From: Oscillospiraceae bacterium
GTDB taxonomy: Bacteria; Bacillota; Clostridia; Oscillospirales; Ruminococcaceae
Length of the DNA stretch: 33,338 nucleotides
Reading direction: 5' to 3'
Assembly (NCBI GenBank): GCA_016291435.1
Contig: JAEEXH010000027.1
Coordinates: forward strand, 1 to 33,338
Shown here: piece by piece, positions 5,501 to 17,190 of the stretch
How the letters are laid out: each line of letters starts with the position of its first letter
Numbering within the stretch: the first letter of the stretch is position 1
Notes under the pieces: generated by a model
What the model saw: the letters and a program-made list of their open reading frames with translations, nothing else
Told to the model about the DNA's origin: nothing
Databases searched by the model: none
Program-made: the position numbers and the translations under genes

Positions 5501-6946
5501 GCCGGTGAGCTCGGTGATCTTCTCCGGGATATGGCGCTCGGGATCGACAAAGGTATTGAAGCTGTCCACAATGCGCATGCCGCGGATCTTCACGGCGCCG
5601 ATCTCGGTGAGCCGGTCCTTCGATGCCGAGAGACCTGTGGTTTCGACGTCGAACACAATGACCTCGTCCTGCGGCGTGCGCGGGTCGGGACGGTCGATGA
5701 TATGCACCGCGTCAAGGTCGTTCACCACATACGCCTCGCAGCCGTAGATCACGCGGAAATCCTTCCATTTCGCGGTGGCGTTCATCGCTTCGGGGAACGC
5801 CTGCACCACGCCGTGGTCGGTGATCGCCATTGCACGGTGCCCCCACTCATGCGCACGGTTACAGAGCGCTTCGGCAGAATTGACCGCATCCATCGCGGAC
5901 ATGTTCGTATGCAGATGCAGCTCCACGCGCTTCACCGGCGCATCATCCGTGCGGCGCTCGGGCGTGTAGCTGTTGATCGCGGTCGGCTTGATTGTGATGT
6001 CGCGGTCATAGTCGTCATAGGATACCGCGCCGTAGATCAGCAGATTATTGCCCTTCTTGCAGTCGCCGAGCGGGAAATCCTTGAATTCCTCGGCGGTGAA
6101 AAACATCTTGACAAGCACGCTGCCCGTGTAATCGGTGACAGGGAAGGTCAGCAGCGTCTTGCCGCTTTTCAGCTCGCGTGATTCAGGTGACGCAAAGACC
6201 TCGACTGCAATGCAGTATTTCTTTGCGCCGCTGTCATAGACATTCTGCGAGCCTGCGACGGCTTCCGCAACGGACACCGGCTTTTCCTTGATGAGCCGCT
6301 TGTAGATGACACCGAGCGTCTTCTTGTCGGGCGCATCGGGGCGCACGGGCTTCACATCCGGGTCGAGATTGCTGAGCGACGAAAATGTCGGGGCTGCTTC
6401 CTTTTCGGCAGCCTTGTACTCCGGCATCGGTGCATCGGGGATCTCGGCTGCGGTCGCGGCGTGCTGCGCCTCGCTGACATGGTTTTCTCCCGCAAACTGC
6501 ACGCGGACGCCGAGCGAAAACATCGTCTGCACGGCGCGGGTGATCTCATTGCGGATATGCGTCTGCTCCAGAAGCTCCGCGCCGCCGTGCATGAGCCCGA
6601 TCGTGACCACACCGTCTGCATAGCTGAGCGCGGCATCGTCGAAAAAGCCGTTGATAACGGAATAATCGCGGCGCAGGAGTTGAAGCAGATCGGGCAGGAT
6701 CTCCACGGAAAAAGCCTCCGAGGGATAGCGCGCCAGAATGCGCACGCCCGCAAGCTCCAGCCGCGCAGCCAGCTCCTTCTCGACCGCCGTCAGCGTCTCA
6801 AAGGGGATATATGCCGGATATTCGGTGACAAAATACAGTCTTGAGCGGTCTTTGTTGGCAAGCACCTGCGTGAGCGTGCCCTGCATGACGCGCTCCGGCA
6901 GCTTTGTGCTGTATTCCCGCAGAAAGCTGTGCAAGGTTTGTGACAT
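2591..6946 (-). CDS. polC: DNA polymerase III alpha subunit, PolC type
   Basis: PolC is the main replicative polymerase of low-GC Gram-positive lineages, with its own 3'-5' proofreading exonuclease. The 1451-residue protein has the usual domain order: N-terminal domain (1-200), OB fold (about 225-325), split PHP domain starting ELHLHTNMSAMDA at 342, DEDD exonuclease from VFDVETTGLSASKDRLTEIG (431-450) to HHRASDDAY near 572, then the rest of PHP, a four-cysteine zinc finger (C919, C922, C944, C947) and the palm with catalytic aspartates in the DKEPDIDQNFS motif (D973, D975). The C-terminal helix-hairpin-helix region reads DGVGTKAAEKLYE. Length is normal for the family. The ATG follows AAAGGA at about ten bases. 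Upstream is a dockerin gene, 52 bases away; no strong promoter is visible between them, so it probably shares the ispG transcript. Confidence 0.98.
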   Translation of the reverse strand: MSQTLHSFLREYSTKLPERVMQGTLTQVLANKDRSRLYFVTEYPAYIPFETLTAVEKELAARLELAGVRILARYPSEAFSVEILPDLLQLLRRDYSVINGFFDDAALSYADGVVTIGLMHGGAELLEQTHIRNEITRAVQTMFSLGVRVQFAGENHVSEAQHAATAAEIPDAPMPEYKAAEKEAAPTFSSLSNLDPDVKPVRPDAPDKKTLGVIYKRLIKEKPVSVAEAVAGSQNVYDSGAKKYCIAVEVFASPESRELKSGKTLLTFPVTDYTGSVLVKMFFTAEEFKDFPLGDCKKGNNLLIYGAVSYDDYDRDITIKPTAINSYTPERRTDDAPVKRVELHLHTNMSAMDAVNSAEALCNRAHEWGHRAMAITDHGVVQAFPEAMNATAKWKDFRVIYGCEAYVVNDLDAVHIIDRPDPRTPQDEVIVFDVETTGLSASKDRLTEIGAVKIRGMRIVDSFNTFVDPERHIPEKITELTGITDEMVAGAPKEKDAVEQFFAFCGENPVLIAHNADFDCAFMRNVMARQGLSHPFVKLDTLVMCRVMLPQMARHKLDQVAKQLKLGKFEHHRASDDAYMLAKIYLTLMERLLKEDRIQTLGDLNTALPPVDPRKLKSYHQIILAKNQTGMKNLYRLVSYSQIDYFYKKPLIPKSLLVKHHEGLLYGSACEAGELFSAIVEGKPDDELKRLASFYDYLEIQPLGNNHFMIDSDRYTVENEEDLRNLNRKVIEIGDSLGIPTVATCDVHFMDPKDGIYREILQSGMGFDDAGRQAPLYLRTTDEMLEEFDYLGADKAYEVVVTNTNLIADKIDRCHAIPKGTFTPSIPGAEEDLIRITTDKAKSIYGDPLPELVQKRLDRELSSICKHGFSVLYMIAQKLVAHSEEHGYLVGSRGSVGSSFVASMAGISEVNPLVPHYVCPKCRHSEFIEDGSVGSGFDLPPKNCPECGTDMKRDGHDIPFETFLGFDGDKEPDIDQNFSSEYQSESHRYTEELFGRANVFKAGTISGVQDKIAYGYVKHYLEDCGITVNNSEMNRLIAGCVGVKKTTGQHPGGMVVIPEEFDVFDFTPVQQPGEPADDDDSEMIITTHFDFHKLHDTILKLDELGHVVPTLYKHLEDMTGIKIADVPTTDPKVLQMCTDCSVLGVTEEDIFCKTGSLGIPEMGTNFTIGMLLDAKPKLFSDFLQISGLSHGTDVWLGNAQELIANETCTISDVIGTRDSIMTYLLYHHVEPKMAFQIMEWTRKGKAPKQFTPEIIQMLLDHDVPQWYIDSCLKIKYMFPKAHAAAYVTAAIKLGWFKLYHPLEYYATYFSIRGGDFDARLACEGVDAVRDRIRELTAKGKERTKKEGDLLDILRIVNEAMSRGIFFLQVNIRKSHATNYRVEDGKLRIPFAAIDGVGTKAAEKLYETAQNGDFISVDELQEQSGASKATIDALDALGALEDLPKSNQLSLF

Positions 6947-6979
6947 AGCATTCAGATCCTTTCGGGGATGTCGGCATGG

Positions 6980-6994
6980 CCCGGATCATCCGGG
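6980..6994. other. Short palindrome between the dockerin gene and polC
   Basis: CCCGGAT-C-ATCCGGG is a perfect inverted repeat immediately after the dockerin-gene stop codon. No T-run follows on either strand, so it is not a convincing terminator; it could be an RNA processing or stability hairpin in the polycistronic message. Confidence 0.4.
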
Positions 6995-6998
6995 GAAA

Positions 6999-7955
6999 TC
7001 AGGAAAGCACGGCGAGCGTCCGTTTTGCAATGCTGAGATCTGCCGCATTGATCTTCTCATTGAAATCGTAATCCACGACATGCCAGAGGTTCAGATCACC
7101 GTCGCAGAGCAGATATTTTTGCAGCATCACAAGATCTGCTGCGGTAAACACGCCGTCATAATTGCAGTCGCCCATCACAAATGTGTTCGGCATTTCCAGC
7201 GAGCCCGGGTCGAGCACACCGTTCGCCAGTCCGATCCGGAAGACCTGTTCGCCGGTCCGGTTCTCGCGGATGGCACACACAGGGTCATCCGTGATCTCCC
7301 TGCCGGTCACCAGAGGGACCGAAACTGTCCAGCAGTCCAGCATGCCCTCCTCCCCTGCGAGATAATGCGCGGGGGTATCGGCGGTGATGAATTCGGTGAG
7401 CTTCGCCTCGGCGTTTCCCGTGAAATGCACGGCGGTATCGGAGCCGTGCGGTGCAGTCAGGATCAGCGCACGAAACGCTCTGCTCTCCCCCGCTGCGCCT
7501 TCATAGGAGGTCGCAAACTCGATGCTCTGGAAATACCAGTCAGTCTGCAGCGATTCGTTGAGGTAGGAATAGTATTTCCCCGTCCACACAGGATCCGTCG
7601 GGTCGCCGTCCGGGTCGGCATAGAGCGGTTCGACGGACACATAGCCGTCCTCCATCGTGACAAGATAGGTGTAGTATGTCACGGTCTCGTGATTCTCGCC
7701 CCAGAGCGGCACAGTCACGACGGAAAGCCCGTCCTCCCGCGGCATATAGCGCACGCAGGTTTCATCGAAATAGCTGAAATATGTCCCCTGTGTGCCGACA
7801 AAGAAAGCACCCGCCTTCGGGGAATAGAACACCGCCTCGCCGCCTGTCGCTTCATAACGCAGCGCGGGCGCATCCTCTGCCGAAGCAGGCAGCGGGAACA
7901 CGGCGGCGCACAGCATCAGTGCGGATGTGAATGCAAAGAGTCTTGTCTTTTTCAT
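6999..7955 (-). CDS. Secreted protein with C-terminal type I dockerin
   Basis: A 318-residue exported protein. Residues 1-26 are a clear signal peptide (MKK, hydrophobic core, cleavage after PASA). Residues 27-255 match no family I recognise; they are rich in aromatic residues (YYTYLVT, GTYFSYFDE) and look beta-rich. Residues 262-318 form a type I dockerin with two duplicated calcium loops: D263-N265-D267-D274 and D295-D297-N299-D306, both complete, each followed by a helix. A dockerin anchors a protein to a cohesin on a scaffoldin, so this is predicted to be a cellulosome or amylosome component, or a cell-surface protein held by a cohesin. No glycoside hydrolase catalytic motif was found. 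The ATG at 7955 follows AAGGAG at six bases; a longer in-frame start at 8060 lies inside ispG and has no leader sequence. It sits oddly between two housekeeping genes. Confidence 0.88.
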   Translation of the reverse strand: MKKTRLFAFTSALMLCAAVFPLPASAEDAPALRYEATGGEAVFYSPKAGAFFVGTQGTYFSYFDETCVRYMPREDGLSVVTVPLWGENHETVTYYTYLVTMEDGYVSVEPLYADPDGDPTDPVWTGKYYSYLNESLQTDWYFQSIEFATSYEGAAGESRAFRALILTAPHGSDTAVHFTGNAEAKLTEFITADTPAHYLAGEEGMLDCWTVSVPLVTGREITDDPVCAIRENRTGEQVFRIGLANGVLDPGSLEMPNTFVMGDCNYDGVFTAADLVMLQKYLLCDGDLNLWHVVDYDFNEKINAADLSIAKRTLAVLS

Positions 7956-7989
7956 AACAGTCTCCTTATGGGGGATAAAAGAAGGCAGA

Positions 7990-9027
7990 TCAGAGCTTCT
8001 CGATCTCCGCAAGCAGTGCCGTGACGATCTCGTTCTCCGGCACCTTGCGCAGCACCTCACCCTTTTTGAAGATCACCGCGCAGCCCTCGCCGCCCGCGAT
8101 GCCGATATCCGCCTCGCGTGCTTCGCCGGGGCCGTTCACGACGCAGCCCATGACCGCAACCTTGATATTCTTCTCACAGCCGCGGAGTGCCTGCTCGACC
8201 TCATTTGCGACCTCGATCAGGTTGATGCGCGTTCTGCCGCAGGTCGGGCAGGAGACAAGCTGCACGCCGCCGCGCAGTCCGATCGCCTTGAGGATATCCT
8301 GCGCCGCCGCGATCTCACGCACGGGGTCTGCCGTCAGCGAGACGCGGATGGTCTCGCCGATGCCGTCCAGCAGCAGCGAACCGATGCCCGCTGCCGACTT
8401 GATCAGTCCCATGCGCTCCGTGCCCGCCTCGGTCACGCCGAGATGCAGCGGATAGGGACACTGCTCTGCGGCAAGGCGGTAGCATGCGATCATGTTCTTC
8501 ACATTGGAGGATTTGATCGAGATGACAATATCATTGAAATCATATTTTTCGAGCAGCTTCGCGTGATTCAGTGCGGATTCGACCATTGCCTGCGGGGTCG
8601 GCCCGCCGTATTTCGCGAGCAGCTCCTTCTCGACAGAGCCGGAGTTCACGCCGATGCGGATCGGAATCTGCTTCTCGCGGCACTTGTCCGCAACCGCCTT
8701 GACGCGGCTCTCCTCGCCGATGTTGCCGGGATTGATGCGGATTTTGTCGATGCCGGCATCTGCGGCGGCAAGCGCGAGCTTGTAGTCAAAGTGAATATCG
8801 GCGACGAGCGGGATCGAAACCGCCTGCTTGATTGCGGGAATCAGCGCAACGGCGTCCATATTCGGAATCGCGGCACGGACAATCTCACAGCCCGCAGCCT
8901 CGAGCGCCTTCGCCTGTGCGACCGAGCCTGCGATGTCATCGGAGCGCGTGTTGAGCATGGACTGGATGTAGATATGCTTGCCGTCGAGCAGACATTGCCC
9001 GACCTTTACAGGATGCAGATTTCTCAT
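7990..9027 (-). CDS. ispG: 4-hydroxy-3-methylbut-2-en-1-yl diphosphate synthase
   Basis: IspG (GcpE) is the iron-sulfur enzyme of the MEP isoprenoid pathway converting MEcPP to HMBPP, which feeds the UppS made from the same cluster. The 345-residue protein has the TIM-barrel N-terminal half (RAAIPNMDAV, PLVADIHFDYKLA, KIRINPGNIG) and the C-terminal [4Fe-4S] domain with cysteines in SCPTCGRT and MGCVVNGPGE, followed by the conserved glutamate. Length is typical of the two-domain bacterial form. An AGGA ribosome site lies about ten bases before the ATG. It starts 18 bases after the last of four paralogous membrane-protein genes and ends 34 bases before the dockerin gene, so all are probably co-transcribed. 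Confidence 0.97.
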   Translation of the reverse strand: MRNLHPVKVGQCLLDGKHIYIQSMLNTRSDDIAGSVAQAKALEAAGCEIVRAAIPNMDAVALIPAIKQAVSIPLVADIHFDYKLALAAADAGIDKIRINPGNIGEESRVKAVADKCREKQIPIRIGVNSGSVEKELLAKYGGPTPQAMVESALNHAKLLEKYDFNDIVISIKSSNVKNMIACYRLAAEQCPYPLHLGVTEAGTERMGLIKSAAGIGSLLLDGIGETIRVSLTADPVREIAAAQDILKAIGLRGGVQLVSCPTCGRTRINLIEVANEVEQALRGCEKNIKVAVMGCVVNGPGEAREADIGIAGGEGCAVIFKKGEVLRKVPENEIVTALLAEIEKL

Positions 9028-9045
9028 GATGATACGTCCTTTCTC

Positions 9046-9753
9046 TCAGAAGTAAAAACCGTTGCGCGACTGAATCGGCTTCGGCGCCGCCACCCATGTC
9101 ACCATGCCGTGATATTTCACCACGACAATCTTGCCGGCATCGCCGCAGCCGGGCTTCGCCTTCAGGATATATTTGCCCTCCGGCTGATAGAACACCAGAT
9201 AGCTTTCCGTCCATGTACGGCGCCGCGAGTGATGCGTAACCTCATACATGTGGTCTATGGGAATCTCAGTGCAGACAGCGCTGCTGTCCACATTTTTCCA
9301 GAGCATGCGCCGGAACAAATCAACTGCGAATACCGCCGCTGCAATCACGCCGAAGATAAACGCAGCACGCGGGTTGATTTCGGGATGACGGCGGCTCGGC
9401 AGCAGATTGGAGACAGCCAGCACTGCCCCGATTCCGATCGCAGCGCCTGCCTCACGCGAAACATGACCGGACTGCTCTCCCAGCTCGTTCAGCACCGCCT
9501 CGGAGACCGGCTCCCAGAGCGGCGGGAGCATGCTGTTGCATTGTTCCCGTTCCTCCGGAGAGAGATGATGCTCGATGAACCAGCAGATGAACGCGATGAT
9601 CAGCTCACCGAGCAGCAGAATCACCAGCAATGAGGTGAGTTCGGGATCCAGAAATCCTTCCACTGCGGCAGGAATGACAAACAATCCGGCAAGCATAATA
9701 TACATCGGGTATTTCTTCCCGCCGAAGGGGCAGGCAAATTTCAGCCTTTTCAT
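9046..9753 (-). CDS. Tandem paralog 4 of 4: four-helix membrane protein of unknown family
   Basis: A 235-residue predicted inner-membrane protein that I do not recognise. Layout: short charged N-terminus MKRLKFACPFGGKKYP, two hydrophobic helices (about 17-33 and 40-60), a loop with HHLSPEERE and PPLWEPV, two more helices (about 101-120 and 129-147), then a C-terminal beta-rich domain (about 155-225) containing IPIDHMYEVTHH and SYLVFYQPEGKYILKAKPG. An even number of helices puts both termini on the same side, probably the cytoplasm by the positive N-terminus. The same layout and motifs recur in the next three genes upstream. I chose the ATG at 9753, seven bases after GGAG and aligned with the paralogs, over an upstream in-frame start. 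One base separates it from the stop of the preceding paralog. Confidence 0.85.
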   Translation of the reverse strand: MKRLKFACPFGGKKYPMYIMLAGLFVIPAAVEGFLDPELTSLLVILLLGELIIAFICWFIEHHLSPEEREQCNSMLPPLWEPVSEAVLNELGEQSGHVSREAGAAIGIGAVLAVSNLLPSRRHPEINPRAAFIFGVIAAAVFAVDLFRRMLWKNVDSSAVCTEIPIDHMYEVTHHSRRRTWTESYLVFYQPEGKYILKAKPGCGDAGKIVVVKYHGMVTWVAAPKPIQSRNGFYF

Positions 9754-9754
9754 A

Positions 9755-10450
9755 TCAGTTCTCCGATCCGGTCTGCACTGTGCCGGAATGCGGCATCCAG
9801 AAAACAGACCCACGAAATTGAATCACGGCGATAAAATCCTTCCCGCCGCTGCCGGGCTTTGCACGCAGCACATAGCGTCCGTCCGGCTGATAGAACACCA
9901 GATAGCTCACACGCCGCGTGCTTCTGCGGTAAAAATGCGTAAGCTCATACATATGGTCAATCGGGATGACTGCATAGGCTGCGGTCTCGTCTGCCTGCCG
10001 CCAGAGATTGCGGCGGCGCCCGTCCAGCAGCAGAATCAGCACGACTGCCAGTGCGCAGATCAGGAAGATGCTGAAATGCATGTTTCCTTGATCATCCGGG
10101 ATAAAGGACAGCGGGCTGAGCGCCGCCGCACAGGAGATCCCGACGATCGCTGCGGTGCTGAATGCAGGCACCTGCGCGTGCAGATCACGGAGAAGCGCCG
10201 CATCGGCAGGCAGCCAGAGCGGCGGCACGGAGGCTGCGATCTTTTCCGCCTCCTCCGGGCGTAACCGCTGAATCATCAGCCGGCAGACAGCCAGCACAAT
10301 GAAGGGCAGCAGAATCATCATCCCGAACGCCGCAGAGGGCGTCACGCGCTTTGTCCCCAGCAAAAAGGCGGGCAAGGCGATGCCGCACATGCAGAGATAA
10401 TACGGATACTGATGCCCGCCGAACAGACAGGCATATTTCAGGCGCTTCAT
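9755..10450 (-). CDS. Tandem paralog 3 of 4: four-helix membrane protein of unknown family
   Basis: A 231-residue member of the tandem family. It begins MKRLKYACLFGGHQYP, has paired hydrophobic helices near 17-32 and 41-59, the family loop QRLRPEEAEKI with PPLWLP, a second helix pair, and the C-terminal domain with IPIDHMYELTHFYRR and SYLVFYQPDGRYVLRAKPGSG. The start overlaps the stop of the upstream paralog by four bases (ATGA), with GGGAGG seven bases ahead, so translation is coupled. A longer in-frame start exists at 10501 but has no aligned counterpart in the other copies. The first cysteine-proline pair of the N-terminal motif is CL here instead of CP. Function is unknown. Confidence 0.85.
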   Translation of the reverse strand: MKRLKYACLFGGHQYPYYLCMCGIALPAFLLGTKRVTPSAAFGMMILLPFIVLAVCRLMIQRLRPEEAEKIAASVPPLWLPADAALLRDLHAQVPAFSTAAIVGISCAAALSPLSFIPDDQGNMHFSIFLICALAVVLILLLDGRRRNLWRQADETAAYAVIPIDHMYELTHFYRRSTRRVSYLVFYQPDGRYVLRAKPGSGGKDFIAVIQFRGSVFWMPHSGTVQTGSEN

Positions 10451-11154
10451 GTAAGATCCTCCCGTTCTGCGACATACACCGTGCGCGGCACGGATACCCA
10501 TGTGACAAGATGCCGGTATTTCACGACGGCGATTGCGCCGTAATCGCCGCTGCCGGAACGTGCGCGCAGCACATATTTTCCGTCCGGCAGATAGAAGACC
10601 AGATAGCTGAGCGTGTAGTCGCCGTCCTTGTGATGATGCGTCACATCATACATATGGTCGATCGGAATGAATGTATACACGGCAGTGTCGTCGATCGAGC
10701 GCCAGATCATGCAGCGCACAAAGCCGAAGACGAGAATGCCGATGCCGAGGACAACAACGGCTTTGCACACCGTTCCTTCCCCTTCTGTGAGCCAGAGCTG
10801 CGCACCCGTGAGCAGCCCGAGCACGATGCAGCCGATGCCACATATCAGCGCTTTCGGATCAATGATGCGCTTGATACTGCGCACACGCGATATAATATCC
10901 GCCGTGACAGGCAGCCAGAGCGGGAATTCGCTCCGTGCGATTGCCTTCTGCTCCGCAGGCGTCAGGCGGTTCTCAAAAACATAGCAGAGCAGCAGCACGA
11001 CAATCACCGCTAGGAGCATCGCGGTCAGGCAGGAGTCTGCCGGGAGATCAAGCTGCAAACCACAGAATGTCGCAGCCCCAAGCCCCGTGATGCCCGCAGC
11101 AACAGGCGGATATTTCTTCCCGCCGAAGGGACACTGCATTTTCAGGCGTTTCAT
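10447..11154 (-). CDS. Tandem paralog 2 of 4: four-helix membrane protein of unknown family
   Basis: A 235-residue member of the tandem family. It begins MKRLKMQCPFGGKKYP and has hydrophobic helices near 17-33 and 42-60, the loop NRLTPAEQKAIARSE with FPLWLPV, helices near 104-123 and 129-147, and the C-terminal domain with IPIDHMYDVTHHHKDGD and SYLVFYLPDGKYVLRARSG. The strongest resemblance is to the two downstream copies in the C-terminal domain; the membrane helices are much less conserved, as expected for a soluble functional domain held by a membrane anchor. The start overlaps the stop of the divergent first copy by four bases (ATGA), with a GAGG site ahead. Confidence 0.87.
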   Translation of the reverse strand: MKRLKMQCPFGGKKYPPVAAGITGLGAATFCGLQLDLPADSCLTAMLLAVIVVLLLCYVFENRLTPAEQKAIARSEFPLWLPVTADIISRVRSIKRIIDPKALICGIGCIVLGLLTGAQLWLTEGEGTVCKAVVVLGIGILVFGFVRCMIWRSIDDTAVYTFIPIDHMYDVTHHHKDGDYTLSYLVFYLPDGKYVLRARSGSGDYGAIAVVKYRHLVTWVSVPRTVYVAEREDLT

Positions 11155-11876
11155 AAGTTTTCCTCACAGTCAGGCGTCAGGATGCAGAACCACTTTCTGT
11201 ATCGGATGACCTTGACGGTATCTGTGTGCGGTTTGTCGATTTGCAGGATATAGCGTCCGTCCGGAAGATAGCAGACGGCATAATGGCGATAGGATTTGCC
11301 GCCGTACCTTCTGGTGCTGACGCGGGTGAAGCAGTGATTGGCGCGGAGCTCTGCGGTCTCTGCCCGTGCGTCGATGTGCTTCCAGAAGCGTGTGACCAGC
11401 CACACACAGAGCAAGACAGTGCCGAACACACCGAGCAGCAGGCCGCAGACCGGCAGCATTTCGCCCCATGTCAGACGGCTTTTTCCTGCAGCGGTGACCA
11501 GTCCGACAATACCGGCGGGCACAAGCATCACCAGCAGCAGCGGGATGATCGTGAAATCGCCCATTCTGCGCCGGACAGCCTCCAGCTCATGTTCCGACGC
11601 CTGCCGGAATACCGGCGGCTCCGCATCGGCGATCTTCGTGCGCTCCTCGGGCGTCAGCCGATGAAACCAGATGTAAAACAGCCCGAGCAGCAGGAAAAAC
11701 AGCAGGGCGACCCCGCCGAATCCCAGCACCAGCATCATTGCGAGCGTGATGCGTTCCCTCTCATACATGCCGATGCGTGCAGCCAGAAGCGGCATGATCA
11801 GGCAGGCTGCGAAAAACGACACGCCGAACGGAAAATAATACCCCTTGAACAGCACGCGGTATCTGTGTTTTTTCAT
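11151..11876 (-). CDS. Tandem paralog 1 of 4: divergent four-helix membrane protein
   Basis: A 241-residue protein, the most divergent and first-transcribed member of the tandem family. The start MKKHRYRVLFKGYYFP replaces the CPFGGKKYP motif. Helices lie near 17-33, 44-69, 111-128 and 138-160. The loop FHRLTPEERTKIADAEPPVF matches the family loop, and the C-terminal domain keeps YAVCYLPDGRYILQ but lacks IPIDHMY (it has ANHCFTRVSTRRYGG there). The ATG at 11876 follows AGGGAG at about six bases; an in-frame start at 11915 falls within a hairpin and is less likely. It lies 76 bases downstream of rseP, with a GC-rich hairpin between. Function is unknown. Confidence 0.82.
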   Translation of the reverse strand: MKKHRYRVLFKGYYFPFGVSFFAACLIMPLLAARIGMYERERITLAMMLVLGFGGVALLFFLLLGLFYIWFHRLTPEERTKIADAEPPVFRQASEHELEAVRRRMGDFTIIPLLLVMLVPAGIVGLVTAAGKSRLTWGEMLPVCGLLLGVFGTVLLCVWLVTRFWKHIDARAETAELRANHCFTRVSTRRYGGKSYRHYAVCYLPDGRYILQIDKPHTDTVKVIRYRKWFCILTPDCEENL

Positions 11877-11903
11877 AGCAGCTCCCTGCGCAGAAGACGC
11901 GCA

Positions 11904-11934
11904 AAGCCGCGGCACCGCTTAACTGCCGCGGCTT
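11904..11934 (-). other. 11-bp perfect hairpin between rseP and the paralog array
   Basis: AAGCCGCGGCA (11904-11914) and TGCCGCGGCTT (11924-11934) form a perfect 11-bp stem with a 9-base loop. On the minus strand it is followed by TGCGCG, not a T-run, so it is not a standard intrinsic terminator. It may mark a processing site or partially attenuate read-through into the four accessory genes. Confidence 0.6.
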
Positions 11935-11952
11935 GCCGTATCTGCGTCCGGT

Positions 11953-13002
11953 TCACCGGTTGAAGATCTTGAAAACATCCTGGAATGTGATCGCAACCAT
12001 CAGCAGCATCAGCGCGGAGAGCCCGACAAAATGGATCATGCCCTCGACCTTCGCAGGAATCTGCTTTCTGCGGATCGCCTCGATGATGAGGAACACAAGC
12101 CGCCCGCCGTCCAGCGCGGGGAACGGAATCAGGTTGAAGATGCCGACATTGATCGTGATGAAGCTCATGAGGTCAAAGAGCGTCATGCAGGCTTCGCGGA
12201 AGGTCGCGCTCTGCTGCACATAGGTCGCAGTCGTGTCCACGATGCCGACAACGCCCGAGAGATCCTTGAAGCCGTATTTGCCGCGGATCAGGTCAAAGAG
12301 CGAGATCCAGATCAGGCGTGCGGTCGAGACAAAGTTCTTGCAGGTTTGCAGCAGGACATTGCCGACCGTTTTCTTCTGCCCGTAGACATAGAAATCGAGC
12401 AGAGTGCCGGTCGCGTTGTCGTGGAATTTCACACGGTCATAGGTGACCTTCTCCCCCTCGCGCACGACGACAACGCTGTAAGTGTCGCTGTCGGTATTTT
12501 GCAGCGCGTAGGAGATGTCATTTGCCGTGTAGATGCGCAGCCCGTTGATCGAATAGAAGGTATCGTCGGGCTGAAGCCACTCTGCCGATGCCGCCGTCAC
12601 AGCGCCGCTGTCATCCGCGTGGAATTCCGCGATGGTCGTCGTCGTGATCGCCGTGTCGATGCAGAGCACGGCAATGATGAGGAAGAAGCCGAGGATCAGG
12701 TTCATTGTCGCACCGGCAACGGTCACGAGCATCCGCTTCCAGACCGCCTGCTTGCGGAAGGCACGCGGATCGTCGCTGTTTTCATCCTCGCCCTCCATCG
12801 CGCAGTAGCCGCCGATCGGCAGCGCACGGAGGGAATACTTCGTCTCGCCCTTTTGCTTTGAGATGATCGCGGGACCCATGCCGATGGAAAATTCCAGCAC
12901 ACGGATGCCGCATTTTTTTGCCACAAAGAAATGTCCCGCCTCGTGAATCATGATGATGATGCCGAAGCAGAGAATCGCAACCAGAACGGTGAGCAGGGTC
13001 AT
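11953..13002 (-). CDS. rseP: Site-2 intramembrane zinc metalloprotease (RseP/RasP family)
   Basis: Site-2 proteases cut transmembrane anti-sigma factors and leftover signal peptides within the membrane. The 349-residue protein has the first-helix zinc motif HEAGH (H20, E21, H24), a PDZ domain around residues 125-205 (the stretch DDTFYSINGLRIYTANDI is its ligand-groove strand), and the second active-site motif NLIPFPALDGG (LDG at 297-299), followed by a last helix. Multiple hydrophobic segments fit the family. The start overlaps the dxr stop by four bases (ATGA), with GAGGAGG eight bases ahead. The standard neighbour in this cluster is ispG; here four accessory genes intervene. The natural substrate in this organism cannot be read from the window. 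Confidence 0.96.
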   Translation of the reverse strand: MTLLTVLVAILCFGIIIMIHEAGHFFVAKKCGIRVLEFSIGMGPAIISKQKGETKYSLRALPIGGYCAMEGEDENSDDPRAFRKQAVWKRMLVTVAGATMNLILGFFLIIAVLCIDTAITTTTIAEFHADDSGAVTAASAEWLQPDDTFYSINGLRIYTANDISYALQNTDSDTYSVVVVREGEKVTYDRVKFHDNATGTLLDFYVYGQKKTVGNVLLQTCKNFVSTARLIWISLFDLIRGKYGFKDLSGVVGIVDTTATYVQQSATFREACMTLFDLMSFITINVGIFNLIPFPALDGGRLVFLIIEAIRRKQIPAKVEGMIHFVGLSALMLLMVAITFQDVFKIFNR

Positions 13003-14156
13003 GCACTTGCCTCCTCGAGATGTGCAGCGACAAATTCACGCGCTGCATGATCAGCCTTCACAACATCCTCATAGCATGTGAGCGGCGTGACAGGGATCGC
13101 GTCAATCGCCTGTGTGACAAGCTCGCCGATGCGCAGGAACGGGATTTTCTCCGCGAGGAATGCCGCAACTGCCGCTTCGTTCGCGCCGTTCGCGGCAACG
13201 GGAGCCGTGCCGCCCATTTCGCTCGCACGGATACATGCGGTGAGACAGTCGAAGGTGTCGTAGTCGGGCTTTGCAAAGGTCAGCGTGCCGTAATCCGTGA
13301 GGGAGAGCGGCTTTGTCGGGCAGGGAAGCCGGTCGGGATAGCAGAGCGCATACTGAATCGGGATTTTCATATCCGGCACGCCCATCTGTCCGATCATCGA
13401 CTCATCCTGATAGACAACTGCCGAATGCAGCACGCTCTGGCGGTGCACGACAATTTCAATCTCGTCGGGCTTCAGGTCGAAAAGCCAGCGTGCCTCGATG
13501 AATTCCAGCCCCTTGTTCATGAGCGTGGCGGAGTCGATCGTGATTTTATTGCCCATGCTCCAGTTCGGATGATTGAGTGCATCCGCAACGGTCACATGCC
13601 GCAGATCGTCCTTTGTTTTGCCGTAGAAGGGTCCGCCCGATGCGGTGAGAATGATCTTTTTGAGCTGCGCACGTTTGTTGCCCTGCAAGCACTGAAAAAT
13701 CGCCGAGTGCTCGCTGTCAACCGGATAGATCGGAACGCCTTTTTCCGCAGCGGCATTCATCACGAGCGCACCGCCCGCGACCAGCGTTTCCTTGTTCGCG
13801 AGTGCCAGCGGCTTGCCGGCTTCGATGGCTTTCAGCGTCGGCAGAAGGCCGACCATGCCGACAACGGAATTGAGCAGAATATCTGCGGATTTCTGCTGTG
13901 CGATCTCGCAGAGACCGTCCATTCCTGCCAAAAGGCGGCAGCCAAGACCGGCTGCCGCTTCTTTGAGTGCGGGATAACGGGATTCATCTGCGATGCACAG
14001 GAGCTCGGGGTGCAGGGCGCGTGCCTGCTGCACCAGATCATCGACGCGGGTATTTGCGGCAAGGGCGGTGACGCGGAGATTGTGCTTCTCCGCAACTTCG
14101 ATCGCCTGCGTGCCGATGCTGCCCGTTGAGCCGAGGATCGCAAGACTGTTCATCAT
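12999..14156 (-). CDS. dxr: 1-deoxy-D-xylulose 5-phosphate reductoisomerase
   Basis: Dxr (IspC) makes MEP from DXP with NADPH, the first committed step of the MEP pathway. The 385-residue protein opens with the NADPH-binding motif AILGSTGSIGTQA, then has LANKETLVAGG, the metal and substrate region PVDSEHSAIFQCLQG, LTASGGPF, and HPNWSMGNKITIDSATLMNKGLE in order, and a complete C-terminal helical domain. Length is normal. Two ATG codons stand in tandem; the first at 14156 is ten bases from AAGGAG and the second thirteen, so the first is preferred. It lies 14 bases after cdsA and overlaps rseP by four bases. Confidence 0.97.
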   Translation of the reverse strand: MMNSLAILGSTGSIGTQAIEVAEKHNLRVTALAANTRVDDLVQQARALHPELLCIADESRYPALKEAAAGLGCRLLAGMDGLCEIAQQKSADILLNSVVGMVGLLPTLKAIEAGKPLALANKETLVAGGALVMNAAAEKGVPIYPVDSEHSAIFQCLQGNKRAQLKKIILTASGGPFYGKTKDDLRHVTVADALNHPNWSMGNKITIDSATLMNKGLEFIEARWLFDLKPDEIEIVVHRQSVLHSAVVYQDESMIGQMGVPDMKIPIQYALCYPDRLPCPTKPLSLTDYGTLTFAKPDYDTFDCLTACIRASEMGGTAPVAANGANEAAVAAFLAEKIPFLRIGELVTQAIDAIPVTPLTCYEDVVKADHAAREFVAAHLEEASA

Positions 14157-14170
14157 TTCAGAGATACTCC

Positions 14171-15007
14171 TTATACAATGTTGAAGAAGGACGATGCCTG
14201 CACATAAGCGCAGAAGAACGGCAGAACCAGCAGCACGCTGTCGAAGCGGTCGAGCAGGCCGCCGTGACCGGGCATGATGGTGCCGTAGTCCTTGATGTCA
14301 AGCTGACGCTTCAGCACAGAAGCCGCGAGGTCGCCGACCGTGCCGAGCACAGCGCAGACCGCCGCGACGCAGACCGTCGAGAGCCAGCTCACTTCGATCG
14401 GGGTGCCCTTGTTCGCGAGCACCGCCTGATAGACCAGATTGAACACAACGAAGAAAATGATATTGGTGACAATGCCGCCGATGAAGCCCTCCAGCGTTTT
14501 CTTCGGGCTGACCTTCGGGCAGAGCTTTGTCTTGCCGAAGAAGGTGCCTGTGAAATAAGCGCCGGTATCCGCAAGCCATGCGCCGCCGAGCGCAAGCACG
14601 AGATAGGCAAGGCCGTGCTGGGAATGGGTGTTGTGCAGCGTGATCGCGCATGCCATGCCGTTTGCGGTCAGGAGCGTGCCCGCGACCGCAGCAAAGAAAT
14701 CCTTTGCGGGCATTTTCTGCGCCTGGAGCACATAATCCGAGAGCTGGAGCCCGATGCAGACAACGGTCAGCATCATGCGGAAGCGAGCCGCGATGCCGAC
14801 TGTCACAAAAGGCAGCGCAGCAGCATAGATCAGCGAAGCGATTGCCGTAATGCGGTATTTGAACAGATCGTTCGCACGGAAGAATTCAAAGAGAATGATC
14901 AGTGCAATCAGTGCGGCAGCGATCGGCAGCACGATCGTGTGATGCAGGAAGAAGACCAGCAGTGCGACCGCAACGCCGATGCCGGCGGAAATCAATCGAG
15001 TAGCCAT
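14171..15007 (-). CDS. cdsA: Phosphatidate cytidylyltransferase
   Basis: CdsA makes CDP-diacylglycerol from phosphatidate and CTP in the membrane, the precursor for phosphatidylglycerol and cardiolipin. The 278-residue protein is strongly hydrophobic with about seven or eight helices and ends with the family signature: DTGAYFTGTFFGKTKLCP, SPKKTLEGFIGG and later KDYGTIMPGHGGLLDRFDS, the metal-binding catalytic stretch. The start is unusual: the ATG at 15007 is preceded two codons earlier by an in-frame TAG, so it cannot be longer, yet the only good ribosome site (AAAGGAG, 15043-15037) is 29 bases away, separated from it by a small hairpin. See the separate entry. It is co-directional with uppS upstream and dxr downstream. 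Confidence 0.95.
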   Translation of the reverse strand: MATRLISAGIGVAVALLVFFLHHTIVLPIAAALIALIILFEFFRANDLFKYRITAIASLIYAAALPFVTVGIAARFRMMLTVVCIGLQLSDYVLQAQKMPAKDFFAAVAGTLLTANGMACAITLHNTHSQHGLAYLVLALGGAWLADTGAYFTGTFFGKTKLCPKVSPKKTLEGFIGGIVTNIIFFVVFNLVYQAVLANKGTPIEVSWLSTVCVAAVCAVLGTVGDLAASVLKRQLDIKDYGTIMPGHGGLLDRFDSVLLVLPFFCAYVQASSFFNIV

Positions 15008-15043
15008 ATTCTATATGTGTGCGGCATCACGCCGCTCTCCTTT
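14992..15043 (-). promoter_or_regulatory. cdsA translation start region: distant ribosome site, hairpin and 11-codon ORF
   Basis: Minus strand order: AAAGGAG (15043-15037), then the hairpin GCGGC-GTGAT-GCCGC (15035-15021), then ACACATATAGAAT and the cdsA ATG at 15007. The hairpin loop contains a GTG/ATG well placed for the ribosome site; the ATG at 15027 opens an 11-residue frame (MPHTYRIWLLD) that ends at 14992, overlapping the start of cdsA out of frame. Either the hairpin shortens the effective spacing for cdsA, or a leader peptide is translated and cdsA is started by reinitiation. This is inference from layout. Confidence 0.4.
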
Positions 15044-15072
15044 GATGTTAGTGATGTGCGGGGGTGTGTATG

Positions 15073-15822
15073 TCAGGAATCCTCGCCGGGATTGAGACCG
15101 CCGAAGCGTCTGGTGCGGCGCGCAAATTCGACGATTGCCTTGTCGAGCTCCTTGGAATCGAAGTCCGGCCAGAGCGTATCGCAGAAATAGAATTCCGCAT
15201 AGGCACACTGCCAGAGCAGGAAGTTCGAGATACGCTGCTCCCCGCCCGGTCTGATCAGCAGATCGACATCGGGCATATCCTTCGTGTAGAGATTCTGCGA
15301 GATCATCTCTTCGGTGATGTCATCGGGATTCAGCGTGCCCGCCTGCACCTGCTTCGCAAGGCGCTTCACGGCAGAGGTGATCTCATGCCGCGAGCCGTAG
15401 TTTGCCGCGATGCCGGCGGTCATGCGCTCAAAGTCATCGGTATCCTTCTGGATATCGAGGAACTGCTGGCGGAGGTCGCTCTCGAAGCCGTCCTCATCGC
15501 CGAGCAGCACAAAGCGCGTCCGCAGGTCAAAATGCTCGTAGGCTTCCTTCAGATACTTGCGCATCAGATCCATCAGCGCATGCACCTCGTCGTCGGGGCG
15601 CTTCCAGTTTTCGGTGGAAAACGCATAGAACGAGATGTATTCCACGCCGATGTCATTTGCATAGCGCAGGAGCTTGCGGAAGGAAAGCGCACCCTGCACA
15701 TGCCCGTAGGTGCGGGGCATGCCGCGTTTTTTCGCCCATCTGCCGTTGCCGTCCATGATGATCGCGATATGACGCGGCATCATGTCTCTCGGCACGGGCG
15801 GTTCCTTTGGTTTTCTTGCCAT
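15073..15822 (-). CDS. uppS: Undecaprenyl diphosphate synthase (cis-prenyltransferase)
   Basis: UppS extends farnesyl diphosphate with isopentenyl units to C55-PP, the lipid carrier on which MraY and MurG (encoded on the other arm of this window) build lipid I and II. The 249-residue protein has IAIIMDGNGRWAKKRG with the catalytic aspartate near residue 24, the FYAFSTENWKRP motif, DVDLLIRPGGEQRISNFLLW and AEFYFCDTLWPDF. All conserved cis-prenyltransferase regions are present. The ATG at 15822 is eight bases from AAGGAG. It sits between frr and cdsA in the usual order. Confidence 0.97.
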   Translation of the reverse strand: MARKPKEPPVPRDMMPRHIAIIMDGNGRWAKKRGMPRTYGHVQGALSFRKLLRYANDIGVEYISFYAFSTENWKRPDDEVHALMDLMRKYLKEAYEHFDLRTRFVLLGDEDGFESDLRQQFLDIQKDTDDFERMTAGIAANYGSRHEITSAVKRLAKQVQAGTLNPDDITEEMISQNLYTKDMPDVDLLIRPGGEQRISNFLLWQCAYAEFYFCDTLWPDFDSKELDKAIVEFARRTRRFGGLNPGEDS

Positions 15823-15851
15823 ATCATTGACTCCTTATCCTGCCGCTCCGG

Positions 15852-16418
15852 TCAGATGCTCATGATCTCCTTTTCCTTTGCGGAAACGAGCTTGTCAATC
15901 TCCTCGGTATACTTATCGGTGAGATTCTGCACCTTCTTGTCGGCATCCTTGAGATCGTCCTCGGTGATCTCGGAATTCTTCTTCATCGCCTTGAATTTGT
16001 CCATGACATCTCTGCGCTCGTTGCGGATCGCGACCTTTGCCTCATCGCCGTACTTCTTGATGGTCTTGCAGAGATCCTTTCTGCGGTCCTCGGTGAGCTG
16101 CGGGAAGACAAGGCGGATCTGCTTGCCGTCGTCGGTCGGGGTGATGCCGAGCTCAGAGGCAAGAATCGCCTTGGTGATCGGCTTGATCATGCTGGTATCC
16201 CACGGAGCGATGACGAGCATTCTCGCCTCGGGCACGGAGACCGCCGCGACCTGATTGATCGGGGTCGGGGTGCCGTAGTAGTCAACCGGGATCTTATCGA
16301 GCACAGCCGGGTTTGCTCTGCCCGCACGGATCGACGCAAACTCCTCAGTGAGGCGGTCGATGGTCTTCTTCATATGCTTTTCAGCGGAATTCAGCTTATC
16401 CTTCATCAGTTCGTTCAT
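15852..16418 (-). CDS. frr: Ribosome recycling factor
   Basis: RRF splits post-termination ribosomes together with EF-G. The 188-residue protein is of usual length and opens MNELMKDKLNSAEKHMKKTI, with the diagnostic EEFASIRAGRANPAVLDKI and VDYYGTPTPINQVAAVSVPEAR, and a long C-terminal helix that completes the three-helix bundle (residues 105-188, KKVQNLTDKYTEEIDKLVSAKE). A clear AAGGAG lies seven bases before the ATG. The gene follows pyrH by 61 bases, with no terminator between them. Confidence 0.98.
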   Translation of the reverse strand: MNELMKDKLNSAEKHMKKTIDRLTEEFASIRAGRANPAVLDKIPVDYYGTPTPINQVAAVSVPEARMLVIAPWDTSMIKPITKAILASELGITPTDDGKQIRLVFPQLTEDRRKDLCKTIKKYGDEAKVAIRNERRDVMDKFKAMKKNSEITEDDLKDADKKVQNLTDKYTEEIDKLVSAKEKEIMSI

Positions 16419-16479
16419 GACAATTCTCCTTACTGTATATGATATGGAGCCGGATGCGGTTTCATACCGGCAGCGGTTC

Positions 16480-17190
16480 TTATTCCGGGAGGATCAGTGT
16501 GCCGACCTTTGCGCCCATGCAGGCATCGTAGATATTGTCGGGGCGGCTGAGGTCGAAGACGAGCATCGTTGTGCCGTTGTCGCGGCAGAGGGCGGCTGCT
16601 GCGGAGTCCATGACGCCGAGCTGGCTGCCGATGACCTCAGAGAATGCGAGGGTATCATACTTGACGGCATCGGAATATTTGTTCGGATCCTTGTCGTATA
16701 CGCCGTCAACCATAGTTGCCTTCATGAGAATATCCGCTTCGATCTCGGAAGCACGGAGCGCTGCCGCGGTATCCGTCGAGAAGAAGGGATTGCCGGTGCC
16801 GCAGCCGAAGATGACGATTCTGCCCTTTTCAAAGTGACGGATCGCACGGTTGCGGATATAGGGCTCTGCGACCTTGGTCATGGTGATCGCGGTCTGCACG
16901 CGCACCTCACAGCCGAGATGCTCAAGCGCATCTGCGAGCGCGAGTGCGTTCATCGCCGTCGCGAGCATGCCGATATGGTCTGCTCTGGTTCTGTCCATCG
17001 AGCCGGACGATCTGCCGCGCCAGAAATTGCCGCCGCCGACGACGATGCCGATCTGGACGCCCGCATCGGCGCAGCGCTTCACCGCCTTGCAGATGGGGAC
17101 GATGACGTCATAGTCGAGTCCGGTTTTCTTGTCACCGGCGAGGGCTTCGCCGCTGAGCTTGAGAAGTATGCGCTTATATTTGAGTTCCAT
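16480..17190 (-). CDS. pyrH: Uridylate kinase (UMP kinase)
   Basis: PyrH phosphorylates UMP to UDP and is a hexameric amino-acid-kinase-fold enzyme. The 236-residue protein starts MELKYKRILLKLSGEALAG, with the phosphate loop in LKLSGEAL, the GIVVGGGNFWRG motif near residue 57, MLATAMNALAL and the C-terminal NGTTMLVFDLSRPDNI. The frame stays open for about 100 further codons upstream, into the promoter, but the ATG at 17190 has GGAGGTG at about eight bases and is the family start. It is the first gene of the pyrH-frr-uppS-cdsA-dxr-rseP cluster and has its own promoter about 30 bases upstream. Confidence 0.98.
   Translation of the reverse strand: MELKYKRILLKLSGEALAGDKKTGLDYDVIVPICKAVKRCADAGVQIGIVVGGGNFWRGRSSGSMDRTRADHIGMLATAMNALALADALEHLGCEVRVQTAITMTKVAEPYIRNRAIRHFEKGRIVIFGCGTGNPFFSTDTAAALRASEIEADILMKATMVDGVYDKDPNKYSDAVKYDTLAFSEVIGSQLGVMDSAAAALCRDNGTTMLVFDLSRPDNIYDACMGAKVGTLILPE

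Follow-up and report, generated by a model that had tools for sequence, protein, structure and literature searches.

An apparently undescribed, lineage-restricted family of small membrane proteins inserted between rseP and ispG

The window analysed here, a stretch of 33,338 nucleotides from an Oscillospiraceae bacterium (assembly GCA_016291435.1, contig JAEEXH010000027.1, positions 1 to 33,338 of the forward strand), carries four tandem paralogous genes for small membrane proteins between rseP and ispG, which raises the question of whether these proteins serve the isoprenoid and envelope pathway in whose gene cluster they lie or are only housed there. The four genes belong to what is apparently an undescribed, lineage-restricted family, and the explanation that we tentatively prefer is that of an accessory family of the membrane face, placed in housekeeping operons for steady expression and diversified by duplication, hairpin loss and allele exchange. 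The first-pass annotation of this DNA had described four tandem co-oriented genes encoding 231-241 residues, overlapping by 4 bases or 1 base apart, and its coordinates, strand and spacing were correct: copies 1 and 2 overlap by 4 bases at 11151-11154 and copies 2 and 3 at 10447-10450, while copies 3 and 4 are separated by a single base (9754). The relevant features are the following.

11151..11876, minus strand: copy 1, rseP-proximal, 241 residues, four predicted helices
10447..11154, minus strand: copy 2, 235 residues
9755..10450, minus strand: copy 3, 231 residues
9046..9753, minus strand: copy 4, ispG-proximal, 235 residues, long type
9706..9753, minus strand: N-terminal motif of copy 4, MKRLKFACPFGGKKYP, residues 1-16, with the highest conservation in the family (mean entropy 1.32 bits)
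9079..9303, minus strand: C-terminal domain of copy 4, residues 151-225, predicted to be cytoplasmic
11953..13002, minus strand: rseP, RIP metalloprotease, upstream neighbour (TIGR00054, above cut-off)
7990..9027, minus strand: ispG, downstream neighbour, 18 bases past the array (TIGR00612, above cut-off)

When copy 2 was searched against the assembly of the window (155 contigs, E up to 10), it retrieved itself, copy 4 (3e-45), copy 3 (1e-37) and copy 1 (5e-11), with no further match of any kind. Copies 2-4 share 34-36% identity, and copy 1, the most divergent of the array, is 19-22% identical to them. The four proteins align over their full length and are homologous along the whole of it, beyond chance, so that their assignment to one family rests on more than short coincidental motifs. 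Copy 1 had been described as lacking IPIDHMY; the IPID is missing indeed, but the aligned histidine is retained (RANHCF).

The description of the family as unrecognised also held in profile searches. The four window proteins gave no match that was above a curated cut-off or consistently significant in Pfam-A, NCBIfam, PHROGs or PADLOC, and a sequence-profile search of the PDB returned three matches up to E 10, none of them credible, the best being CD9 (E 0.041). For 54 members of the family, Pfam matches were scattered over 55 families, none of which was found in more than four members. The low-scoring matches, to DUF4818 and DUF6962 (copy 4), to the YdcZ-type DMT family (three members, best E 5.5e-6) and to SPC12 (one member, E 4e-5), aligned mostly over helix segments; the scores of copies 1-4 were all below the curated cut-offs, which were not displayed for the other members. 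The YcxB-like, bacterial PH-domain and DUF3592 families presumably share the layout of one or more hairpins plus a small beta-rich domain, but none of them appeared among the Pfam matches of the window proteins or among the 25 commonest matches of the 54 members, and hhalign gave a probability of 0.2% with the only sequence compared, a neighbour that we take to be DUF3592-like. No description of the family was found in the titles and abstract beginnings of the literature covered, most subscription journals lying outside that scope.

With copy 2 as the query, matches were found in 25 of 30 genomes of the genus and in none of 31 outside it, and the family profile added one genus genome (26 of 30), G015, in which the member lies at a different location. 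In all 25 genomes matched by copy 2 the family is at rseP-ispG, with both neighbours on the contig in 23, a contig end removing ispG in one of the others and rseP in the other. A survey of these neighbourhoods gave copy numbers of 1 to 4 within the genus, with one copy in 7 genomes, two in 13, three in 4 (one copy being cut by a contig end in one of them) and four in the window only. The set had been proposed to be either a heteromeric complex or a diversified array; a fixed four-part complex does not fit a number of copies that varies from 1 to 4 and is single in 7 of 25 genomes, and the diversified array is supported.

The interruption of an rseP-ispG adjacency is real. Both genes were found in 28 of the 31 outgroup genomes and are within 75 bases of each other in 26 of these, the exceptions being G041 (742 bases apart) and G057 (separate contigs). 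They are also adjacent in four genus genomes without a copy at the site (G006, G012, G014 and G015); G016 could not be assessed, as its contig ends inside ispG. In three of the four no family member was found anywhere, two of the three being less than 90% complete. In a tree of concatenated rseP and ispG (25 genus rows and 3 outgroups, some forks being weak, 91/56 and 91/41), the copy-bearing G010 and G013 were deepest and the empty genomes fell in three places, which implies about three losses or several gains. The four empty-site genomes are small (2.0-2.3 Mb) and 16 of the 18 multi-copy genomes measure 2.4-3.9 Mb; the small size may be a matter of phylogeny, reduction or incompleteness. G001 probably retains the remnant of a decayed copy upstream of its two copies, where 26 residues of a 34-residue open frame match the family N-terminus (C7:3096-3173).

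A pattern-based scan of the genome collection yielded 33 loci, all of them from metagenome-assembled genomes (MAGs) titled Ruminococcus, Oscillospiraceae, Clostridiales or Clostridia. In 22 loci rseP and/or ispG were beside the family, and in ten of the 11 located elsewhere, all except L146, one to three copies lie upstream of, and co-oriented with, coaX (pantothenate kinase). Two of these ten genomes are titled R. flavefaciens, and coaBC is on the other side, on the opposite strand, in the eight coaX-site loci that include it. In L137 and L138 the distance between the family gene and coaX is about 700 bases; in L137 an open reading frame (ORF) in this gap (6739-7383) resembles by eye a type I restriction specificity subunit. 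Whole-genome searches of the 11 genomes returned the known copies only and none at rseP-ispG, and rseP directly precedes ispG, by at most 82 bases, in eight of them; in the other three, rseP aligns partly (L208, L211) or a contig end cuts the region. The coaX clade is called related from its ispG identity (74-77%) and its titles.

Further single members, distant in sequence, were detected in G015 (same genus, other place), G448, G742, G692 and G749, the sequence of the last not being inspected. The window copies, the short and coaX-site forms and the members of G015 and G448 align over the loop, the helices and the C-terminal domain; hhalign with a profile lacking the latter two members (A4) gave probabilities of 98.7% over 152 columns for G015 and 97.8% over 196 columns for G448, whose member is without a literal PDG. 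By eye, the G448 member follows an FtsX-like ABC permease (L186:63-2759). When 396 family-level genomes were drawn, 17 matched at 1e-3, including six of the seven members of the genus in the draw; G448 (whose member is part of the profile), G742, G692 and G749 scored 8e-12 or better, and seven matches at 1e-3 to 1e-5, of which only that of G740 was inspected, were treated as chance. Apart from the window's own, there were five matches (1e-4 to 7e-4) in 391 class-level genomes and none at 1e-4 in 398 phylum-level genomes. As these wide draws scored no more than 7 or 14 first-look candidates in each genome, members with weak similarity could have escaped detection. The range of the family appears to be narrow, and its position goes with lineage rather than pathway. 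A mobile element or phage origin was rejected, as no relatives were found among viral contigs or, with copy 4 as the query, plasmids, and six phage matches at E 0.9 were taken as chance. An antisense match of 71 residues in L038 was dropped as a false positive.

The first-pass annotation had linked the array specifically to undecaprenyl-phosphate and envelope synthesis. This tie is not supported, because a related clade has the family upstream of coaX; moreover, other members lie elsewhere and four genus genomes are empty at the site. An undecaprenyl or isoprenoid function was therefore rejected as the specific default reading.

The close spacing with the operon genes was confirmed by the junctions in the 33-locus set. 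Family genes overlap each other by 4 bases in 12 of 24 junctions and are at most 46 bases apart in 21 of 24; the last family gene overlaps ispG by 4 bases in 11 of 21 loci, and the first one overlaps rseP to the same extent in 5 of 21 (median spacing 34). From these tight junctions, the array is probably expressed with the operon, which in the window reads frr, uppS, cdsA, dxr, rseP, the array, ispG and polC by NCBIfam matches, that of cdsA being below cut-off. In a consensus scan of 6900-16600, promoter-like sites numbered 6 and terminator-like sites 12, compared to 3.9 and 7.2 in shuffled sequences, a difference that was not informative.

Between dxr and rseP, 8 of 20 loci carry a gene for a CPBP-like intramembrane protease with an EExxR/EExxxR-type motif (L126:4168-4839 and the dxr-rseP gap of L117, L118, L125, L128, L129, L131 and L139); the one copy scanned matched NCBIfam CPBP profiles below cut-off. 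In the window dxr and rseP overlap, and the gene is thus absent there. CPBP/Rce1-type proteases resemble the family in being small multi-helix membrane proteins, besides this operon neighbourhood, but no CPBP family was among the 25 commonest Pfam matches of the 54 members, and none of the four window proteins matched a CPBP profile in Pfam or NCBIfam.

The proposed layout of four helices with a conserved loop and C-terminal domain was borne out by hydropathy and column entropy. Hydropathy counts gave four helices in 37 of the 54 members; of the others, 5 had three and 12 had two. Of the proteins printed, the six having two or four helices carry 17-27 lysines and arginines on the N-terminal side and 0-5 on the other, so that by the positive-inside rule the N-terminus, the central loop and the C-terminal beta-rich domain are predicted to face the cytoplasm; the three printed three-helix proteins fit this topology only if a weak first helix was missed. 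Among 42 long forms, mean column entropy rose from 1.3 bits in the N-terminal motif (MKRLKYxxPFxGKxxP) through 1.9 in the C-terminal domain and 2.2 in the loop to 2.4-2.8 in the helices. Thus, the C-terminal domain and the loop are more conserved than the helices, as had been noted, but the most conserved stretch is the N-terminal motif, which had gone unmentioned. Across the 54 members the Y, P, G and Y of a YxPxGxY hairpin are invariant and one histidine is nearly so, and no catalytic signature was evident from the conserved columns. The hairpin loop of the C-terminal domain (residues 169-184 of copy 4) varies in length and sequence.

A short form of 164-200 residues, always the last copy of the array, is found in 17 of the 25 rseP-site genomes; it is devoid of the first hairpin, with the loop and an xPF motif at the N-terminus retained. 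In the genome of the window all four copies are of the long type, and the short form was not detected. In G007 the last copy is a 185-residue form devoid of the second hairpin. As either hairpin can be lost with the predicted topology unchanged, we argue that the cytoplasmic parts are what selection keeps.

The family is changing fast yet under purifying selection. In best-matching pairs among 210 pairs of 21 rseP-site loci, the window excluded and each gene measurable in 105-210 pairs, median protein identity was 0.36 for the long and 0.38 for the short form, compared to 0.73 for rseP, 0.90 for ispG, 0.87 for dxr, 0.69 for cdsA and 0.83 for uppS. In eight close pairs, the ratio of nonsynonymous to synonymous divergence (omega) was 0.13-0.49 for the family and 0-0.18 for the flanking genes of these pairs. 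Positive selection is not supported, as no region had a convincing omega above 1; the region-wise value was below 1 apart from 1.26 in a 20-codon tail of the coaX clade, a segment too short to be usable. In the C-terminal hairpin loop synonymous divergence (dS) was elevated too (1.0 and 1.8), so this segment is mosaic or misaligned and no proof of selection. A quick protein tree grouped the short forms in one clade (SH-aLRT support 98) and the coaX-site forms in another (100), and it paired copy 1 with the rseP-proximal copy of the sister genome L117/G027 (80); the rest was poorly resolved, with long branches.

A different history of the long gene was evident in two pairs of loci. In L126/L129 the dS of the long form was 0.67 compared to 0.13-0.17 for the flanking genes and the short form, with DNA identity (150-base windows) of 92-99% on both sides, 81-82% in the two end windows of the long gene and 64-68% in its middle. 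The opposite was found in L142/L144, where the dS of the long form was 0.07 vs 0.49-0.65 for the surrounding genes and the short form; identity was 96-99% over a segment comprising the last part of rseP and the long gene, vs 80-92% in the remaining rseP and 79-93% in both ispG and the short form. Fisher tests gave p values of 8e-18 and 5e-20, respectively, which are approximate since synonymous counts were approximated from dS. Over the 10 pairs with a median dS up to 0.7 (the ispG fragment of L122 excluded), the log2 ratio of the long form to its neighbours had a standard deviation of 1.33, with the neighbours at 0.18-0.33 and the short form at 0.45, a spread due mainly to these two pairs, as the other eight were between -0.64 and +1.22. 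Both discordant segments are inside contigs, with collinear flanks on either side. In the coaX clade, best-matching family copies had a smaller dS than coaX in 20 of the 25 pairs printed (exceptions, L136/L149 and four pairs with L138), and in L137/L140 their dS was 0.19 vs 0.83-1.08 for five flanking genes; codon-usage effects may contribute to this comparison. Allele replacement by recombination is suggested as accounting for both directions of discordance. As a separate observation, the end of the UBA4350 contig L122 (7339-7648, inside ispG) is nearly identical to the window's ispG (8719-9027) and its upstream genes match another species, pointing to a chimeric contig end or a real recombination.

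In the explanation that we tentatively prefer, the four genes would be a local expansion of a lineage-restricted membrane-protein family. The working part would be the cytoplasmic C-terminal domain with the loop and the N-terminal motif; one or two interchangeable hairpins would keep it at the membrane, and the copies may form homo- or hetero-oligomers. The family would be a dispensable accessory factor of the membrane face, with a partner or challenge that differs between lineages, and the housekeeping operons would provide steady expression without their pathways being served by it. Diversification would proceed by tandem duplication, hairpin loss and whole-allele exchange through homologous recombination in the conserved flanks. 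Several points weigh against this account. Strong discordance was detected in just two of 10 close pairs, the other eight differing from their neighbours by a factor of at most about 2.3, and the L142/L144 segment takes in the last part of rseP and hence is not exactly one gene. All 33 scan loci are titled MAG, so assembly could affect the two discordant pairs, and the contig end of L122 looks chimeric or recombinant; an assembly error is possible in such genomes, although each contig would then have to contain two collinear switches. L126/L129 could have arisen if old paralogs were lost differentially, but this is no explanation for L142/L144. Finally, the conserved part is predicted to be cytoplasmic, not exposed, and the region-wise omega, below 1 apart from the 20-codon tail, does not establish a role in conflict or in an arms race.

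It is rather improbable, in our view, that these are ordinary fast-evolving accessory proteins under weak constraint, whose discordance reflects paralog loss and MAG artefacts with no special exchange. The moderately relaxed omega of the family (0.13-0.49) is in line with this, as are the truncated N-terminal remnant of G001, a sign that copies decay, the suspect contig end of L122, at least one such case, and the eight of 10 close pairs lacking strong discordance; with the variable copy number, L126/L129 could plausibly reflect hidden paralogy. However, hidden paralogy cannot give the excess similarity of L142/L144 (96-99% in the long gene vs 79-93% in the surrounding genes), both discordant segments are contig-internal with collinear flanks, and the lower family dS in most of the coaX-clade pairs printed also argues against it. 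An immunity or defence locus, protecting the membrane from bacteriocins, phage or rival toxins and swapping alleles since novelty pays, seems unlikely. Fast divergence, variable copy number, tandem paralogs and the apparent allele replacement in two pairs would fit it, and so would the CPBP-like neighbour of some loci, as some CPBP proteins act in bacteriocin immunity; but the four window proteins had no PADLOC and no credible PHROGs match, credible relatives were absent from the phage, plasmid and viral collections, omega is below 1 and conservation is on the cytoplasmic side. Besides, no toxin or defence gene was recognised beside the arrays, whose flanks had no systematic scan for them. We would give a similarly low chance to a polymorphic self-protection or recognition locus inside a housekeeping operon, in which recombination in the conserved flanks replaces long alleles between species, modular hairpin loss and tandem duplication yield a repertoire specific to the lineage, and the working side is the cytoplasmic membrane face. 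Such a locus would have been overlooked so far because it resembles part of the isoprenoid and rseP cluster.

The least probable of the alternatives is that the proteins are partners of their neighbours, regulating RseP (a site-2 protease) or steps of the methylerythritol phosphate or undecaprenyl pathways, so that the site reflects function. Linkage to rseP and ispG in 25 genomes, the 4-base overlaps with ispG in about half of the loci (11 of 21) and the CPBP-like protease gene that 8 of 20 loci carry between dxr and rseP speak for it. The second home makes it less likely, as the related clade has the family upstream of coaX and no copy at rseP-ispG in whole-genome searches; further members lie in other neighbourhoods, and four genus genomes are empty at the site, three of them without any member found (two below 90% complete).

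The present data delimit an unannotated family in dozens of Ruminococcus-like genomes, with subtypes and two recurrent genomic homes, and the position in the rseP-ispG operon alone would have misled on its function. Should isolates confirm the allele replacement, this locus would be useful for finding what these bacteria compete over or protect against.

Two more observations, both made by eye, concern the vicinity of the array. The spacer between rseP and copy 1 contains a perfect 11-bp inverted repeat with a loop of 9 and no T run (11904-11934), possibly an attenuator or a processing site. Between ispG and polC, an ORF at 6999-8060 encodes a small predicted secreted protein with C-terminal dockerin-like repeats, fitting a cellulosome-bearing relative of Ruminococcus.

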